Shown here in pieces: positions 1,246-64,000 of a stretch of 64,000 nucleotides of DNA. The stretch comes from Anaerolineae bacterium (GTDB lineage: Bacteria > Chloroflexota > Anaerolineae > Aggregatilineales > Phototrophicaceae). How positions within the stretch are numbered: position 1 is the stretch's first letter; every line of letters starts with the position of its first letter. The translations under genes were made by a program, and so were the position numbers. The notes under the pieces are model-generated. The model did no database searches, had not been told where the DNA came from, and worked only from the letters and a program-made list of their open reading frames with translations. Location of the stretch: the NCBI GenBank assembly GCA_022821805.1, contig JAJECX010000024.1, forward strand, positions 86,306 through 150,305, read 5' to 3'.

Positions 1246-2022
1246 TCAAGACCAGCCGATCCTTTGACGATCGGACTCCAGCGGTTCGATAAGATCCTGC
1301 ATCGAACGCTCGATATAGGGGAAGCCCAGCCAGGCGCTCATCAAGCCGAATAGCCCGCCAGTGAAGATGCGAAATATTGGCGCCGTCTCTCGCACAGGCC
1401 AAAACTCGAATGGCGGGTAGCTCAGGAGCTGGCTGAACCCGTCCAGCCCAACAGGACCCAAACCAGCAAATACGTACAGCCAAAATGGCAGTGGACGGAT
1501 CCGCCAGCGATAACGGCGATAGATCACGCCGCCAACAAAGATCATCGTGTAGATTGCGAGGTCGCGCGCGCATAGGCTCGTCTTGTAGCCGAAGGATTCG
1601 TCGCCGATGAAATGACGCGCGGCGAACTGTTGGGCGATGCTGAAGTCGCCTAGTCCCTCAACATTCGCCGGCGGAGCTGGCGCTCGCCCCTCATAAAAGC
1701 GCGACCAATAGCGATACTGCTCCAAAAACGCTCCTGATTGACTGGCGTAGGCTTCAAACGATTGGTAGCCGGTGCCGGCGGCGCCGCGCGGATAAAAGGC
1801 TTGCTCGCCAAACAGAAACGGCGACCGAAAGGCAAATTGGTGGCAGAATGGACTATAGAGCGTGTAAATGATATCGGCTGGCGCTTTCAGTCCCAGCTTC
1901 GCCAGCGTCGGCGCGACCCAGGGCAAGCTGATGTAAATCGCCAACGCGACCAAAGCGAAACGCAGCCAATTGCGCGCGAAACCCAAGAATACGCGCTTGC
2001 TATAAACTTCCGCAGTTCTCAA
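1246..2022 (-). CDS. DUF2085-type integral membrane protein
   Basis: CHQ motif (LYSPFCHQFAFRSPF), CARDLAIY, multiple hydrophobic segments. Confidence 0.75.
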   Translation of the reverse strand: MRTAEVYSKRVFLGFARNWLRFALVALAIYISLPWVAPTLAKLGLKAPADIIYTLYSPFCHQFAFRSPFLFGEQAFYPRGAAGTGYQSFEAYASQSGAFLEQYRYWSRFYEGRAPAPPANVEGLGDFSIAQQFAARHFIGDESFGYKTSLCARDLAIYTMIFVGGVIYRRYRWRIRPLPFWLYVFAGLGPVGLDGFSQLLSYPPFEFWPVRETAPIFRIFTGGLFGLMSAWLGFPYIERSMQDLIEPLESDRQRIGWS

Positions 2023-2046
2023 GGCTCTTCGCAGCCTGGAAATCGA

Positions 2047-2610
2047 TCAAGCCTTTCTGCCGAAGCGGGCGAGATCGCCCTGCAGGGATTTCAACCGCAC
2101 TGGTCCGTAATGCACGCGTCGAATGACATGGGCTTTATCCAGCACAAAAGTCGTAGGCAGTCCACGAACCTGATAAAGATGGGACACCGCTCCGCGAGCG
2201 TCCAGCAGAATGTCAAACGTCAATCCGAGGTTAGCAGCCCAGTCGCGAACAGCGTGAACGTTGTCGCCGACATTGACCGCCAGGATTCGCAGGTCATCGG
2301 GATAAATCTCGTAGAGCGCCTGCAACTCGCGCATTTCGCGCTGGCACGGCTCGCACCAGGTCGCCCAGAAGTTGATTATGGTGAACGCGCCACGCGCCTC
2401 TTCCAGCGCAAGCGCGCGCGACGATGGGGTCAAGAGTGTGAACGGCGGCGCGGGCCAACCCTCTTCCGGCGCGACAGCGCGTGCGCCGCCACGCCGAAAC
2501 CCAGAGTAATCGGCGCGGTCGGGCAATCCCGCGTGGATCAAAACAGCCAATGCCGCGCCCAGCGTAAGGAACGCGGCAAGCAAATGCAGGACCCGATTCA
2601 GCTTGGACAT
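2047..2610 (-). CDS. TlpA/ResA-like thiol-disulfide oxidoreductase
   Basis: INFWATWCEPCQREM thioredoxin active site; N-terminal membrane anchor. Confidence 0.88.
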   Translation of the reverse strand: MSKLNRVLHLLAAFLTLGAALAVLIHAGLPDRADYSGFRRGGARAVAPEEGWPAPPFTLLTPSSRALALEEARGAFTIINFWATWCEPCQREMRELQALYEIYPDDLRILAVNVGDNVHAVRDWAANLGLTFDILLDARGAVSHLYQVRGLPTTFVLDKAHVIRRVHYGPVRLKSLQGDLARFGRKA

Positions 2611-2619
2611 GCTACGGAA

Positions 2620-4584
2620 TCACGGTTGCGCGAAAGCCTCATGCAGCAATTCGCTGAGTTGCGATTCGGTCATGATACCAAAGTGCCGCGCCAGAATGAC
2701 ACCGTCTCTGTCGATCAAATAGGAACTCGGTCGGGTCTGGATTCCATAGGCGTCATTGATTTCGCCACTGTCATCCAGCGCCAGCGAAAAGCTTAAGCCG
2801 AATTCATCGCGAAACGACTCCATCGCCGCCTCGGTGTCGTTGTAGGCGATGGCGAGGATCTCAAACCCTTGCTCGTTCCATTCCTCGTAGGCTTTTTGGA
2901 ATTCCGGCATTTCTCGCCGGCAGGGACCGCACCAGGTTCCCCAGAAGTTCAGTAGGACGACATGATCGCGCAAGTCAGAAAGCGCGACAAGCTCATCGGC
3001 GAGCGTCTCAATTGTGAATGCGGGCGCGCGATTGCCCTCCGCCAATCCAATCGCTGGCGCCAGATCATCGGCGATATCGGTAAGACTGGTCATCGCATCA
3101 TCAGCGGCTGCGGTCTCAACTTCAGGCGCTTCTGGCTCGCTTTCAGGCGAAACCGCGGATGCCGCCTCGAACGGCTCAGCATCGCGCGCCCTTACGCGAA
3201 AGCGCGCGCTTTCGCCGGCCGCAGAATGGCGCAGCGCCAGACGATACATGCCATCGCCGTCAAGCTCGAAGCCGGTCAGCGGATAAAATCGACCATCGGA
3301 CTCCAGACTGTCGGCCTGGCTCGCGCGCGCCAGCTCCTCGTCGGCGGGACCATAGAGCATCATGTCGAATTCCGGAACAGCTTCGTTGACGCTGCGCACT
3401 TCAATATCAATGATGCGCCCCGCCTCTCCATGAAAGAGGTACTGGAGCTCCGGCATATCAGGCGCGAACTGACCGCTGGCGCTCTGGTTAATCGCCACCG
3501 GTACCAGCGAGCCGCTCAAGCAGGCGCCGACGTGGCTCAAAGCCAATTCGCCATCGAAAAAGCCGACTCCGCACTCCTCAACGCGGAAGGTGAAATCAGC
3601 GAACTCGCCCTGCGAAAACGTTTGGCTCAGGCTCTGCAGCTGTCCGCTGGCGACCAACACGCCAATGGCGATCAAGAGCGAACCGCTGATGAGCTCAATC
3701 TTGTGCATATGGCGCTGCAGTCGGCGGAGCAGGCCTTGCGCGCTGTTCATGAGCAGGGCGGTGATAACAAAGGGAATGCCCAAGCCGATGGAGTAGGCGG
3801 CCAATAGCAGCATGCCCTGGACGATATCGCTGCTGGTGGCGCCGCTCGCCGCCGCCACCGTCAAGATTGTTCCCAGCAGCGGACCGATGCAAGGCGTCCA
3901 GCCGGCGGAAAACACCATGCCCATAAACGTGGAGCCGATCAAGCCGTCGCGTCCGCCGCCGCCGATATCGGCGCGCGTATCGGAATACAGCATGGATTCG
4001 AGCCCTTCCAATGCGCCGTGCCAGAACTTCGCCGGCTCGCTGAAGGCGCCCTTGAAGAATAGCGCGGCGAGCAGGATCGCGATCAAGGGCAGCGCGATGG
4101 CTGATTGTTCGAGCAGGCTCCAGTAGATCATTGCGCTGGCGAGAACGGAGAATCCAATGCTGAACAGGATGTTGTCCAAGATTCCCGCTTGCCCTTTCTT
4201 TCGCAGCCAGCTGAAGAAGCGCGGCAAAACCCCCATGAACTGGAAGCCGAAGAAAATGATCACCACGCCGCCGACTCGCCCAAGAATCTCGGTGAACGCG
4301 CTGACGTGCTGGCCCGCCAGGCTAGAAAGGGCAGTTGTGAAGAGACCGATCAATACAAAGACGATGGTGAAGCCGAGGACGAAAGCAATGCCGTGCAGCA
4401 GCATTTGCAGCCGAAGCGCGAGGCTAACGCTGGCGGTCGTTCCTGAGGCGGTCTGTCGACTGACATTATGCGTCAGGCGCCCGCCCATATATCCGATATA
4501 AGCCGGCACCAGTGGCAGAACACAAGGAGAAATGAAGGACAGAATGCCCGCCACTAGCGCCAATCCAATTGTGACATTATCCAT
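2620..4584 (-). CDS. CcdA/DsbD-like membrane protein fused to an extracytoplasmic middle region and a C-terminal TlpA thioredoxin domain
   Basis: N-term GILSFISPCVLPLVPAYIGYMGG (CcdA); C-term LLNFWGTWCGPCRREMPEF (TlpA); internal ATG chosen at 4584. Confidence 0.85.
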   Translation of the reverse strand: MDNVTIGLALVAGILSFISPCVLPLVPAYIGYMGGRLTHNVSRQTASGTTASVSLALRLQMLLHGIAFVLGFTIVFVLIGLFTTALSSLAGQHVSAFTEILGRVGGVVIIFFGFQFMGVLPRFFSWLRKKGQAGILDNILFSIGFSVLASAMIYWSLLEQSAIALPLIAILLAALFFKGAFSEPAKFWHGALEGLESMLYSDTRADIGGGGRDGLIGSTFMGMVFSAGWTPCIGPLLGTILTVAAASGATSSDIVQGMLLLAAYSIGLGIPFVITALLMNSAQGLLRRLQRHMHKIELISGSLLIAIGVLVASGQLQSLSQTFSQGEFADFTFRVEECGVGFFDGELALSHVGACLSGSLVPVAINQSASGQFAPDMPELQYLFHGEAGRIIDIEVRSVNEAVPEFDMMLYGPADEELARASQADSLESDGRFYPLTGFELDGDGMYRLALRHSAAGESARFRVRARDAEPFEAASAVSPESEPEAPEVETAAADDAMTSLTDIADDLAPAIGLAEGNRAPAFTIETLADELVALSDLRDHVVLLNFWGTWCGPCRREMPEFQKAYEEWNEQGFEILAIAYNDTEAAMESFRDEFGLSFSLALDDSGEINDAYGIQTRPSSYLIDRDGVILARHFGIMTESQLSELLHEAFAQP

Positions 4585-56772: not shown

Positions 56773-57288
56773 ATGTGCGGACGCTATACCCTGACCGCTG
56801 ATGCCGAATCTATTCAGCTCGCCTTCAATTTGGATGACATTGACGGTTGGACGGAGCCGCGTTTCAATATAGCGCCAACGCAGCAAGTGGCTGTCATCAC
56901 TGATCGAGACCCGAAGTCGCTTTCCTTTATGCGATGGGGTCTGGCGACATCCTGGGCGAAGGATCCCAAGATCGGCAATCGCATGATCAATGCCCGCTCG
57001 GAGACGGCGGCGGAGAAACCGTCGTTCCGTACCGCCTTCAAACGGCGGCGCTGCCTGATTCCCGCGGATGGTTATTATGAGTGGAAGAAGCAGGGCAAGA
57101 AAAAGATTCCGATGTACATTCAGCACGCCGATCGCGCAATCTTCGCTTTCGCCGGCTTGTGGGAAAGCTGGAAGGATCCGGCTGGCGACTGGCTGCAAAC
57201 CTGCGCGATCTTGACCACCGAAACTGACGCCGCTTATCTGATCGCGCTTGAATACGTGCCGCCGGACGAGCGAGATCGTCATGACTGA
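56773..57288 (+). CDS. SOS-response-associated peptidase (SRAP/YedK) family, apparently C-terminally truncated
   Basis: MCGRYTLTADAESI, FNIAPTQQVAVI, MRWGLATSWAKD, NARSETAAEKPSFR, RCLIPADGYYEWKK; normal C-terminal HDRMP-type motif not found. Confidence 0.85.
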   Translation: MCGRYTLTADAESIQLAFNLDDIDGWTEPRFNIAPTQQVAVITDRDPKSLSFMRWGLATSWAKDPKIGNRMINARSETAAEKPSFRTAFKRRRCLIPADGYYEWKKQGKKKIPMYIQHADRAIFAFAGLWESWKDPAGDWLQTCAILTTETDAAYLIALEYVPPDERDRHD

Positions 57289-57776
57289 CGAACAGATCGC
57301 GGATATTCTTGGTGGCACATGGCCCGAATGGCTTTCAAGAAGGCAATCCGTTCGCAACACATCCTGACAGGCCTGCGACGGTGTGCCCGGGAGGTCCCTG
57401 TTAGCCAGCGCTGTTTGACGCCCTTGGCAGATTTATACGATCGTTGACATTGCACAGGTGCGGGACAAGCGTCTGATCGGAACGGTACTGCTAGCGCGCC
57501 TGACGGGTGACCAGGTGGTCATTGAACTAGGATCGGCATGACAAGTTACTGGTGGACGCGCTGCAGGCCTGTGGCGAGCCGGAATCACGGATTGTTCTCG
57601 CCTATCGTGAGGATGCGCTCCCCGCCTAAACGCTTTGTCGCGGATTTTCCAAGTTAACTACGGAGAAACGCCAGCAGTTGCGCGGTTATCTCAAACAGGT
57701 TCCTCAGAGCACGCCCCTTCCTTCTAAGCCCTGAAGAAAGAATGCAGCGCTTGACTGCGGAACCGGAAGTCCTTGT
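57289..57776. other. Decayed DNA with fragmentary frames
   Basis: No intact ORF; a plausible peptide DRHDKLLVDALQACGEPESRIVLAYREDALPA is out of frame with the upstream peptide IVDIAQVRDKRLIGTVLLARLTGDQVVIEL. Confidence 0.5.
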
Positions 57777-57881
57777 TTGGTGGAGGCGGCGAACTACGCG
57801 CATATCGCTACAATCGCTGGATGTTCGCAGCACCGATGTATAATGAAGAAGGTTGCATCACCGAGCGTGTTAAGGTGCGCT

Positions 57882-58973
57882 ATGTACAAGACATTTCGAG
57901 TCAAGAATTTCCGCTGTTTCAAAGACCTGCAAATCAACGATCTTGGTCGAGTGAATCTGATTGCGGGAGCGAACAACACGGGCAAGACGGCCTTAATGGA
58001 GGCAATGTATTTGCATACGAGGCCCTTCTCGCCTGGGGATCTGTCGAATCTACAGCAAGTGCGCGGTATCAATTTCAGCGATGACAACAGAGTGAGCAAC
58101 TGGAGACAATTCTTTTACCGATTGGATCCTGACACACCTATAGAGATTGAGGGACAGCGCATTCTTCCGGAGCCGCGCCCCATCCTTTGCATAGAGGAAT
58201 TGGCGAATACGATTGAAAACGAGGCGGAATTCCAACTCTACGCCAAGAATCTGCAATTGTTGGGCATGACTCAAATTGATGCGGCCAAGGCGGCGAGTGA
58301 GTTGGATATAGTTCTCCACTTTTTGGAGCGAGATGAAAAAACAACGCATGGATCTGCGTTCCTGCCCTCCAACCCGAAGCTGCCTGTCATTGGGTTCAAG
58401 GATAGAAAGGAAGATTCCCAGTTTTTCCCGGTACAAGGCAGGCCGACTAGCGAAGACCTCACTGACAAATACAGCCTGCTCAGATTTGAAAACAGACATT
58501 CTGCCATAGACAGCGCGCTGAAGCGGCTTGAGCCGAAGCTGACGAATGTAGAGGTCTTGTCGCCTGACGGACAGCGAAGAATTTGGGCAACGGTTGACGG
58601 CGTCATAATGCCATTTCACTTGCTCGGCGAAGGTTCAATTCGTTTCGCCAGTCTCCTGATGGTGATGTGCGGGGATAAACCTGAATATCTTTTCATCGAT
58701 GAGATCGAGAATGGCATCCACTACTCGGTTCAACAGGATGTATGGAAGGACATCGGCAAAGCCGCGCGCGAGCACGACATACAGGTCTTTGCCACCACAC
58801 ACAGCTGGGAAATGATCGAGGCTGCCCACGAAGCCTTCAAGAGCGATCACAACTATGAATTCCGTTTCCATCGCCTTGACAGAAGCCTGCAAACGGGCGA
58901 TATAGAAGCGGTGACATACAATGAGTTTGGCATGGATGCGGTGACCAGTATCAGTTATGAGGTTCGCGGGTGA
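57882..58973 (+). CDS. AAA family ATPase (AAA_15/AAA_21-like, OLD/PARIS-ATPase class)
   Basis: Walker A LIAGANNTGKTALME; GEGSIRFASLL; Walker B YLFIDEIENGIHYSVQ; FATTHSWEMIEAA; start ATG 57882 with AAGGTG RBS. Confidence 0.85.
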   Translation: MYKTFRVKNFRCFKDLQINDLGRVNLIAGANNTGKTALMEAMYLHTRPFSPGDLSNLQQVRGINFSDDNRVSNWRQFFYRLDPDTPIEIEGQRILPEPRPILCIEELANTIENEAEFQLYAKNLQLLGMTQIDAAKAASELDIVLHFLERDEKTTHGSAFLPSNPKLPVIGFKDRKEDSQFFPVQGRPTSEDLTDKYSLLRFENRHSAIDSALKRLEPKLTNVEVLSPDGQRRIWATVDGVIMPFHLLGEGSIRFASLLMVMCGDKPEYLFIDEIENGIHYSVQQDVWKDIGKAAREHDIQVFATTHSWEMIEAAHEAFKSDHNYEFRFHRLDRSLQTGDIEAVTYNEFGMDAVTSISYEVRG

Positions 58974-59674
58974 GGAATATCAAGATCGATGAAAGGTATG
59001 GTCGCCTGCTGTTTGTCGAGGGCCGCGATGATGAGGTTTTCTTTCTCAAGCTTTTCGAGCATATGGGCATCAGTGGTGACATTCATATCGTTGTCTACGG
59101 CGGCAAGGACAATCTTCAGCGTCATCTTCTCGCGATCCTGAGCGACGCAAATTACTCGATCAATCGGCAGCACATCGGCATCGTTCGCGATGCCGATTAC
59201 AATACCGACGCGTTTGACTCGATTGTTTCCGCGCTCAGGCACGCTAACGAACATCGAGGCACACGACACCAGTTTTCTATTCCAGGAACAGCGCAGGCGC
59301 GATCGGAAGCAGCGCCCTATGTATCGGTCTTGGTATTGCCGCCGGATGGTGAGGGTACGCTGGAAGACCTTGTCGTCGATGTGCTCAAGACCGAACCTGT
59401 CATGACTTGCGTCGACCAGTATTTTGAATGTTTGACCGAGAATGGAATTAGCATATCCAGGGAGCGGTTCTCCAAGAGCAAGCTCAGCGTCTTCATATCG
59501 GGAGCGGCGGTTGATACCGATTATGCAACCAATAGAGACTCGCGCCGGAAGTTTCTGCGGGAAGCTGTGGCCATGCATTGGTGGCGTGCTGCGCTCTGGC
59601 AACATGACAACTTCAGAGTGATACAAGACTTTCTCACGCAACTTCGCACAGACCAACCCTCGTCCGCGACCTAA
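58970..59674 (+). CDS. TOPRIM-like protein (DUF3226/DUF4435-like), partner of the upstream ATPase
   Basis: LLFVEGRDDEVFF, GGKDNLQ, IGIVRDADYN, GEGTLEDLV; GTG start overlaps the ATPase TGA (GTGA). Confidence 0.75.
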   Translation: MRNIKIDERYGRLLFVEGRDDEVFFLKLFEHMGISGDIHIVVYGGKDNLQRHLLAILSDANYSINRQHIGIVRDADYNTDAFDSIVSALRHANEHRGTRHQFSIPGTAQARSEAAPYVSVLVLPPDGEGTLEDLVVDVLKTEPVMTCVDQYFECLTENGISISRERFSKSKLSVFISGAAVDTDYATNRDSRRKFLREAVAMHWWRAALWQHDNFRVIQDFLTQLRTDQPSSAT

Positions 59675-62318: not shown

Positions 62319-62602
62319 AAACCGCCTTTGAAATGTCCACCTGTCCTCTACTGTCGACATTTCGTATAGTATTGGCCTGTTCTTTCAGAGCGCGATTCCA
62401 CGTTTTCAATCCAACATAGGCCAAGTTTGAGTCCGGCGCTGAGAAACATCGTCGTTTGACGCACCGAATACTTATCGACTCACGTCATTTACGCTACCGA
62501 TAACAGTCAATGGTACATCAATTGTCTCTCTGAGATAAAGCTCGGTTGCCCTGAGTAGATCGAGGATATCCTTCTCTATATGCAGCACATGAAACGATAG
62601 GA

Positions 62603-63984
62603 CGGTACACCCCCACGCCTGTGGGGACAACTGGAAGTGAAGCTGTCATGGATTGACGCTTTGACGGTTCACCCCCACGCCTGTGGGGACAACTGAACCG
62701 GCGCCTGGAAGCGTACGAGGGTCAACGGTTCACCCCCACGCCTGTGGGGACAACGTCAGATTTAATCCCGAACCGATTCTTGATGTGCGGTTCACCCCCA
62801 CGCCTGTGGGGACAACGGTCGCGCACCCGCGGCGCCAGAGGACGCACAACGGTTCACCCCCACGCCTGTGGGGACAACAATCGGTCTGGCGCCGGCGGAG
62901 ATTTTGTTCTCCGGTTCACCCCCACGCCTGTGGGGACAACAATCGGTCTGGCGCCGGCGGAGATTTTGTTCTCCGGTTCACCCCCACGCCTGTGGGGACA
63001 ACCAGAACCCCTTCCATGAAACTGCGCACGTCACTCGGTTCACCCCCACGCCTGTGGGGACAACCTCTCTCGAATCGCCAACGCGAGACGATGCCACGGT
63101 TCACCCCCACGCCTGTGGGGACAACGGGGAAGAGCCGCCGAAGGAATTGGCGGAGCGCGGTTCACCCCCACGCCTGTGGGGACAACGCATCTGGCGTTGG
63201 AGGAGAGTGACCACGGACGGTTCACCCCCACGCCTGTGGGGACAACTCATCCTGCGGTGTTGGTTGTGCGGGTTGGAGCGGTTCACCCCCACGCCTGTGG
63301 GGACAACCTCGTCACGAAACTGCTGCAACCCGCCGCTGCCGGTTCACCCCCACGCCTGTGGGGACAACGGGGCAACGCCCTGAATTAAGGCTGCGCGAAA
63401 ACGGTTCACCCCCACGCCTGTGGGGACAACGCCGCCAGCGTGGAGGGGAATAATGTGATCCACTGGTTCACCCCCACGCCTGTGGGGACAACGCCGCCAG
63501 CGTGGAGGGGAATAATGTGATCCACTGGTTCACCCCCACGCCTGTGGGGACAACTGCGCGGCGCTGGATGTGTCTATCGCAATCGACGGTTCACCCCCAC
63601 GCCTGTGGGGACAACGATGGCACGCTAGTACCCTGCTTCAACCACAACGGTTCACCCCCACGCCTGTGGGGACAACGCTTGCATCTACACGTACTCGATT
63701 GGGAGTGGCGGTTCACCCCCACGCCTGTGGGGACAACGCTTGCATCTACACGTACTCGATTGGGAGTGGCGGTTCACCCCCACGCCTGTGGGGACAACTC
63801 GGGGCTGCGCGGGGCTGTCGTAGGCCGATCAGCGGTTCACCCCCACGCCTGTGGGGACAACTCTGATTTCTCGATGGCGGCATTATTACCCACCGGTTCA
63901 CCCCCACGCCTGTGGGGACAACGATGGGGGCGGGGGCGCCTCGAAAACGGGAGCGCGGTTCAGCCCCACGCCTGTGGGGACAAC
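62603..63984 (-). CRISPR. Type I-E-like CRISPR array: 23 repeats of 29 bp and 22 complete spacers (31-34 nt); array or spacer continues to the window edge
   Basis: Plus-strand repeat CGGTTCACCCCCACGCCTGTGGGGACAAC; minus-strand repeat GTTGTCCCCACAGGCGTGGGGGTGAACCG with CCCCAC/GTGGGG hairpin and GTGAACCG handle. Confidence 0.98.
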
Positions 63985-64000
63985 GCCTTGGTTCGTTTTT

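Follow-up and report, generated by a model that had tools for sequence, protein, structure and literature searches.

The 64,000-nucleotide (nt) window analysed here, from contig JAJECX010000024.1 of an Anaerolineae bacterium (assembly GCA_022821805.1), carries two overlapping genes that encode an ABC-type ATPase and a putative nuclease of DUF3226/TOPRIM type. Both open reading frames (ORFs) are intact, the first starting on ATG and the second on the GTG of a GTGA overlap with the ATPase gene (Table 1). The initial annotation, made from the sequence alone, had pointed to this overlap, to Walker A, Walker B and THS motifs in the ATPase and to TOPRIM-like acidic motifs in its partner, and all of these were confirmed. 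The ATPase contains GANNTGKT (residues 29–36), LFIDEIENG (270–278) and THS (306–308), and N31, G34, K35, D273, E274, H307, E360 and R362 are invariant in 34 relatives. The second protein contains FVEGRDDE (residues 15–22), RDADYN (73–78) and GTLEDLV (129–135), and E17, G18, D74, D76 and P124 are invariant in 32 relatives. Because these residues are invariant across relatives, the motifs of both proteins are not due to chance. The proposed co-location of homologues also held, since the overlap is kept in 29 of 31 loci from the same genus (4 nt in 21, 1 nt in 8) and the two loci without it are broken copies. Paired ATPase and DUF3226 genes were also found in other genera of the order, on small plasmids of Citrobacter, Acinetobacter and Klebsiella, on a large Plesiomonas plasmid and in viral contigs. 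Every unbroken relative examined was paired, nearly always with a 4- or 1-nt overlap. On the ∼4.1 kb ColRNAI plasmids common in K. pneumoniae (L039 and ∼139 Klebsiella plasmid records), the related pair is nearly all of the non-replication cargo.

In profile searches, the ATPase matched AAA_15 (1.8e-21) and AAA_21, the PADLOC model PDC-M38A over residues 1–362 of 363 (1.2e-54) and one AbiLi model over its full length (1.3e-52). Its AlphaFold2 (AF2) model, with a predicted local distance difference test score (pLDDT) of 80, matched PtuA, Rad50, GajA and OLD in Foldseek and includes a poorly ordered, low-confidence insertion at residues ∼95–180. The second protein matched DUF3226 (PF11536) at 3e-18 (66.8 bits against a curated cut-off of 27), PDC-M38B at 3.2e-8 over part of its length (residues 12–142), mad4 at 1.4e-5 in the N-terminal half and AriB at 3.8e-5 over residues 12–79 only, together with a weak match to the OLD-like_TOPRIM profile. 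It is therefore nearer to DUF3226 than to a typical AriB, as originally suggested. The partner proteins of relatives matched PDC-M38B at 2.5e-12 to 6.7e-79. A profile of 32 relatives found the solved DUF3226 protein PH0156 at 6e-7, and AriB twice (0.29) and OLD at chance-like E-values; hhalign of the TOPRIM profile against AriB relatives gave a probability of 70 (E 4e-5) over the VEG...DAD region. Strands are predicted at residues 12–16, 38–42, 68–74 and 117–123 with helices between, a Glu follows strand 1 and a DxD follows strand 3, which corresponds to the topology of a TOPRIM domain. The putative TOPRIM assignment is based on strand order, sequence profiles and motifs, and not on a fold match. 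In conclusion, the genes are a PDC-M38-type ATPase and DUF3226/TOPRIM-type pair, which supports the initial proposal of an OLD-like/ABC ATPase with a TOPRIM-type partner. The pair coincides exactly with no described system; the class is already catalogued by PADLOC as the uncharacterised candidate PDC-M38, of which the fixed site and module exchange described below are not a part as far as we found. Searches for literature on DUF3226, PDC-M38 and module exchange between antiphage genes, mostly phrase searches of open-access papers, found nothing relevant.

Our genus sample comprised 34 draft genomes, one per species and including the source genome. In 28 of these, a DUF3226 pair lies next to tsaD and/or comp3, a conserved 455-amino-acid gene downstream of the pair with no Pfam family; the source genome is among them, with its tsaD-site copy on contig C34 (L040). 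These tsaD-site relatives also match PDC-M38. The site is empty in G015 and G024, where tsaD and comp3 are 114 and 133 bp apart, and in G029 it is occupied not by the pair but by 11 kb with tail-like genes. The contigs of G003 and G004 end at the site on both sides, and G033 is without comp3. The tsaD-site pair is placed downstream of a TATAAT box, the same box is found at empty sites, and tsaD is transcribed away from the pair. Relatives of the pair are thus close to core in the genus, at a site other than that of the window copy, and we rejected the view of the pair as a simple accessory-island gene. The accessory setting proposed initially applies to the window copy, which is off-site, but not to its near-core relatives at the tsaD site.

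Two further observations concern this site. In four genomes an ABC-3C-like set (a DUF2326/CTD10 protein, a small protein and an HNH protein) lies next to tsaD, and because this set is also inserted there, the tsaD region is a defence hotspot. A functional link between the pair and tsaD was considered because the targets of AriB are tRNAs that read ANN codons and carry t6A made by TsaD. This link was dropped and is kept as a curiosity: tsaD is divergently transcribed, off-site copies are without tsaD, and AriB cleavage needs no tRNA modifications (PMC12409363).

Between species, the proteins flanking the site are 71–77% identical, compared with 42% for the ATPase and 37% for the TOPRIM protein (medians). 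ATPase residues 1–42 share 92% amino acid identity, and their four-fold degenerate sites (0.61–0.65) are as similar as those of the flanking genes. From residue ∼43, amino acid identity is 0.2–0.4 and four-fold sites are at ∼0.3, close to saturation. In the C-terminal third of the ATPase, amino acid identity recovers to 0.56–0.70 but four-fold sites reach only 0.31–0.46. Pairwise identities resolve three blocks: the constant start with the flanks, a putative sensor module (S; ATPase residues ∼43–300) and a putative effector module (E; residues ∼301–363 with the TOPRIM gene). Segments correlate within S (rho 0.44–0.74) and within E (0.31–0.57), and rho is about zero between S and E or between either and the flanks; residues 241–300, across the floating junction, correlate weakly with E (0.04–0.25). 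Mantel tests gave 0.01 for S and TOPRIM, 0.04 for S and flanks and 0.02 for TOPRIM and flanks (all not significant), and 0.585 for the ATPase C-terminal part and TOPRIM (0 of 2000 permutations). Maximum-likelihood trees of S, E and the flanks each reject the other two in approximately unbiased (AU) tests (p ≤ 0.0013; deltaL 2000 to 4000). The promoter and ATPase residues 1–42 follow the chromosome, and S and E each have their own history.

The joints are visible at the DNA level. Sister genomes L048 and L050 (flanks ∼92%) match as far as ATPase nt ∼110, are then 25–50% identical, and return to 80–97% at nt ∼780, before Walker B; they have the same E and a different S. Conversely, L046 and L050 are mostly 85–97% identical up to nt ∼930 and differ from there until the TOPRIM gene ends, so that they share S but not E, and in L043 and L067 (flanks 92–97%) both modules differ. 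The 3′ joint is at the very end of the TOPRIM gene, where the final codons hold a conserved tail (GCCAAAGCCTTCCTCACCCAACTCCTC..TAG); in L057 and L058, which have a new TOPRIM gene with its own stop, a remnant copy of the old tail lies beyond that stop. Grouping at 50% identity gives 19 types of S and 9 of E, which form 24 combinations across 29 loci; S type 0 is paired with E types 0, 1, 2 and 4, and six S types accompany E type 0. Shared S modules (L043/L047, L046/L050 and L050/L058) have a four-fold identity of 0.79–0.81, compared with 0.55–0.64 for their flanks. Because the shared modules exceed the flanks, S moved between species after these had split. A genus-wide family at a fixed site, with sensor and effector halves that recombine independently, is the main addition to the initial annotation.

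Based on these results, we consider it probable that the pair is a PARIS-like abortive-infection unit at a genus-fixed site, whose trigger sensor (S) and effector (E) are replaced independently. In PARIS, an ATPase holds a TOPRIM nuclease, which is released upon encountering a phage product (PMC12409363, PMC11455837). By analogy, the ABC ATPase would form a ring or scaffold in which the TOPRIM nuclease is held inactive. A phage product would be recognised by S, the variable middle of the ATPase with its poorly ordered insertion, and the TOPRIM protein would then be released to cut host nucleic acid and stop phage growth, with tRNA as the leading guess for the target, taken from AriB. In line with a toxic effector, AbiLii of F. 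nucleatum is toxic in E. coli (PMC3985639). S contains both the most variable stretch and the low-confidence insertion, which would fit a part under pressure from changing phage proteins, and an ATPase C-terminal part that travels with TOPRIM would fit a dock for it. The promoter and Walker A segment would stay with the chromosome while S and E are swapped, presumably by homologous recombination with alleles of other species under selection by phages, resulting in new trigger/effector combinations; the window copy would be an off-site duplicate of one tsaD-site allele. On balance, we favour a genus-wide combinatorial innate-immunity locus, in which the site, promoter and ATPase start are constant and S and E are recombined independently. 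If so, the population would sample numerous trigger/effector pairings in a manner comparable to the exchange of hsdS or Rhs tips, and the joint inside the ATPase would mark where phage sensing naturally gives way to effector control in ATPase–TOPRIM defences.

Several points weigh against this interpretation. PADLOC lists PDC-M38 as a candidate only. In the fold check of the second protein that the initial annotation proposed, the TOPRIM acids and strand order were as expected, but Foldseek searches (PDB and viral) with its model (pLDDT 83) gave no match with E < 0.001. Some pairs of loci (L045/L055) share the ATPase C-terminal part but not TOPRIM; moreover, these segments are adjacent on the DNA and their correlation need not mean contact. 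The breakpoints are at conserved ATPase motifs, where the ATPase is conserved enough for recombination, and may mark recombination opportunity rather than functional modules; position alone is no proof of function. A tRNA target is suggested by analogy only, and all 34 genomes are possibly metagenome assemblies.

The coincidence of block boundaries with conserved ATPase motifs would also suit two vertically inherited, fast-evolving halves, with the mosaic an effect of alignment or of conserved motifs. We rejected this explanation as hardly credible, because saturation of synonymous-like sites is seen in S and E and does not extend to residues 1–42 or the flanks, near-identical S modules are paired with unrelated E modules, AU tests reject shared trees, and L057 and L058 retain left-over 3′ tails. 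An OLD/Gabija-like DNA nuclease split over two genes, with a variable region that recognises DNA ends or structures instead of a phage protein, is unlikely in our judgement. The similarity of the ATPase model to PtuA, Rad50, GajA and OLD and the weak OLD-like_TOPRIM match speak for it; however, the separate short TOPRIM gene and the AriB and mad4 profile matches resemble PARIS and MADS more, and a sensor of DNA ends is not expected to diverge down to 17% identity where the flanks of the species are 90% identical.

The pair might instead be an anti-plasmid, anti-element or addiction (toxin–antitoxin, TA) system, in which the ATPase is the antitoxin and diversity separates competing elements. 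Relatives that stand alone on small plasmids, such as the 4 kb ColRNAI plasmids of Klebsiella, are consistent with this idea, and AAA antitoxin/TOPRIM toxin pairs have been validated as TA systems (PMC10440598). Addiction alone, however, predicts neither chromosomal fixation in 28 of 34 genus genomes nor independent module exchange, and we regard it as improbable, although the same molecules may do both. Overall, an abortive-infection unit with exchangeable sensor and effector is the reading we prefer, with phage defence as its presumed role.

ATPase–TOPRIM defences (OLD, Gabija, PARIS, AbiL and MADS) are widespread, and the ATPase part that recognises the phage, as opposed to the part that controls the nuclease, is known for few. 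The ∼30 related units are natural chimeras, in which one sensor occurs with four effector types and one effector with six sensor types, and a few of them assayed against one phage panel would show directly which segments set the trigger specificity and which the effector function. The locus also illustrates that a putative defence unit can approach core status in a genus although its content is replaced more quickly than that of the genes around it, and presence/absence surveys would score such a near-core unit as one conserved system.

The window copy itself is a second, off-site copy, with an S module of type 1 and an E module of type 3. At the tsaD site of G002 (L059), E type 3 is joined to a different S. 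The start and −10 box of the window copy are those typical of the genus; the tsaD-site copy of the source genome starts differently. A further copy in G022 is broken and G009 holds remnants, and these partial copies look like decay rather than a cassette archive. Silent donor cassettes in the source genome were considered and rejected: a search with the constant 5′ DNA returned the window copy and, at the tsaD-site copy, a match of 32 bp, and nothing else. A frame-shifted XisI-like remnant lies 200 bp upstream of the pair, and in G022 an intact XisH/XisI-like pair stands beside the broken window-type copy (81% DNA identity; named by eye). Of the decayed genes and TA pair noted initially in this neighbourhood, the XisI-like remnant bears out the decay, and the TA pair is no more than plausible, its RelE match (E = 1.7e-4) falling short of the Pfam cut-off. 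The window also contains an SRAP (YedK-like) gene without the C-terminal part of the family. The CRISPR array reported near the pair is present at 62.6–64.0 kb, with 23 repeats (CGGTTCACCCCCACGCCTGTGGGGACAAC) that are type I-E-like by eye and tandem duplicates of three spacers. The window reaches the end of the contig here, and no cas genes are visible beside the array. We found no functional link between the pair and the CRISPR array, and the array and TA pair appear to be neighbours only.

Table 1. Features of the gene pair, its surroundings and related loci (window positions unless a locus is given)
Feature	Position	Strand	Basis or remark
ATPase gene, ABC/OLD-like, PDC-M38A/AbiLi-type, 363 amino acids	57882..58973	+	profile matches, AF2 model
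DUF3226/TOPRIM-type putative nuclease gene, 234 amino acids	58970..59674	+	profile matches, invariant residues
Constant block: ATPase residues 1–42, including Walker A (57966–57989)	57882..58007	+	identity profile
S module: ATPase residues ∼43–300, exchangeable putative sensor	58008..58781	+	right boundary floats, codons 260–320
E module part 1: ATPase C-terminal ∼63 residues, inherited with the TOPRIM gene	58782..58973	+	Mantel test
E module part 2: TOPRIM gene	58970..59674	+	
−10 box TATAAT	57839..57844	+	common to tsaD-site copies and empty sites
Counterpart of conserved TOPRIM 3′ tail (GACTTTCTCACGCAACTTC)	59627..59645	+	
Extent of off-site block	57806..59652	+	82% DNA homology with second copy in G022, none beyond
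XisI-like remnant, frame-shifted	57427–57633; L098 9549–9754		
SRAP (YedK-like) gene	56773–57288		
CRISPR array	62591–63987		
Tail-like/structural phage genes with repeated 'MAWTTPKTDWTTGELV' proteins	L118 2713–12853 (G029)		tsaD–comp3 gap
ABC-3C-like genes	L049, L051, L060, L063		between amine-oxidase-like gene and tsaD
PARIS-like AriA/AriB pair	L161 2–2367 (G000, contig C16)		
True AbiL pairs	L166 1486–3566; L162–L165		

Among known systems, both genes match PDC-M38, the ATPase over its full length and the TOPRIM protein partly; PDC-M38 itself is a catalogue entry only, and no paper was found under that name. The hallmarks of PARIS are a hexameric AriA that sequesters AriB, an Ocr-type trigger and tRNA cleavage. 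The window pair resembles PARIS in having two genes for an ABC ATPase and a TOPRIM protein, and in the link between their TOPRIM profiles. In contrast to PARIS, the TOPRIM protein is shorter (234 compared with ∼300 amino acids), its AriB match is weak and partial, and the ATPase matches AriA less strongly than PDC-M38A. PARIS in the strict sense was rejected as the identity of the pair, since the AriB match is so short and a separate PARIS-like pair is located on contig C16 of the source genome. Given this separate pair, the genome holds at least four units of ATPase–TOPRIM type.

AbiL of Lactococcus is similar in that the window ATPase matches AbiLi over its full length. However, AbiLii is an RloB-type protein (PMC10440598), whereas the window partner is DUF3226; the second protein had no match to AbiLii at E ≤ 10, and hhalign against RloB gave a probability of 3. 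AbiL was rejected on this partner protein, and a true AbiL pair stands elsewhere in the source genome (contig C5; AbiLi 5e-70, AbiLii 1e-18). In at least four of the sampled species (G000, G002, G026 and G031), a true AbiL pair (ATPase and RloB) adjoins the same 412-amino-acid gene, and this neighbourhood is a possible second fixed defence site.

With MADS, the window pair shares the mad4 profile match to the N-terminal half of TOPRIM, but the ATPase scores 37 bits against the MAD3 model (cut-off 420), and no other MADS genes were recognised among the ORFs around the pair, which were not scanned one by one. In Gabija and class 1–2 OLD, ATPase and TOPRIM are fused, unlike the two separate genes in the window, and no Gabija-type UvrD-like helicase was recognised beside the pair. 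The organisation across the genus is similar to that of the hsd immigration control region and of Rhs/polymorphic toxins, where a fixed site carries highly diverged alleles with a constant start, exchangeable sequence after it and tails left over. These comparators serve in restriction or are secreted toxins, whereas here the joint runs through the ATPase and separates the putative sensor from the effector.
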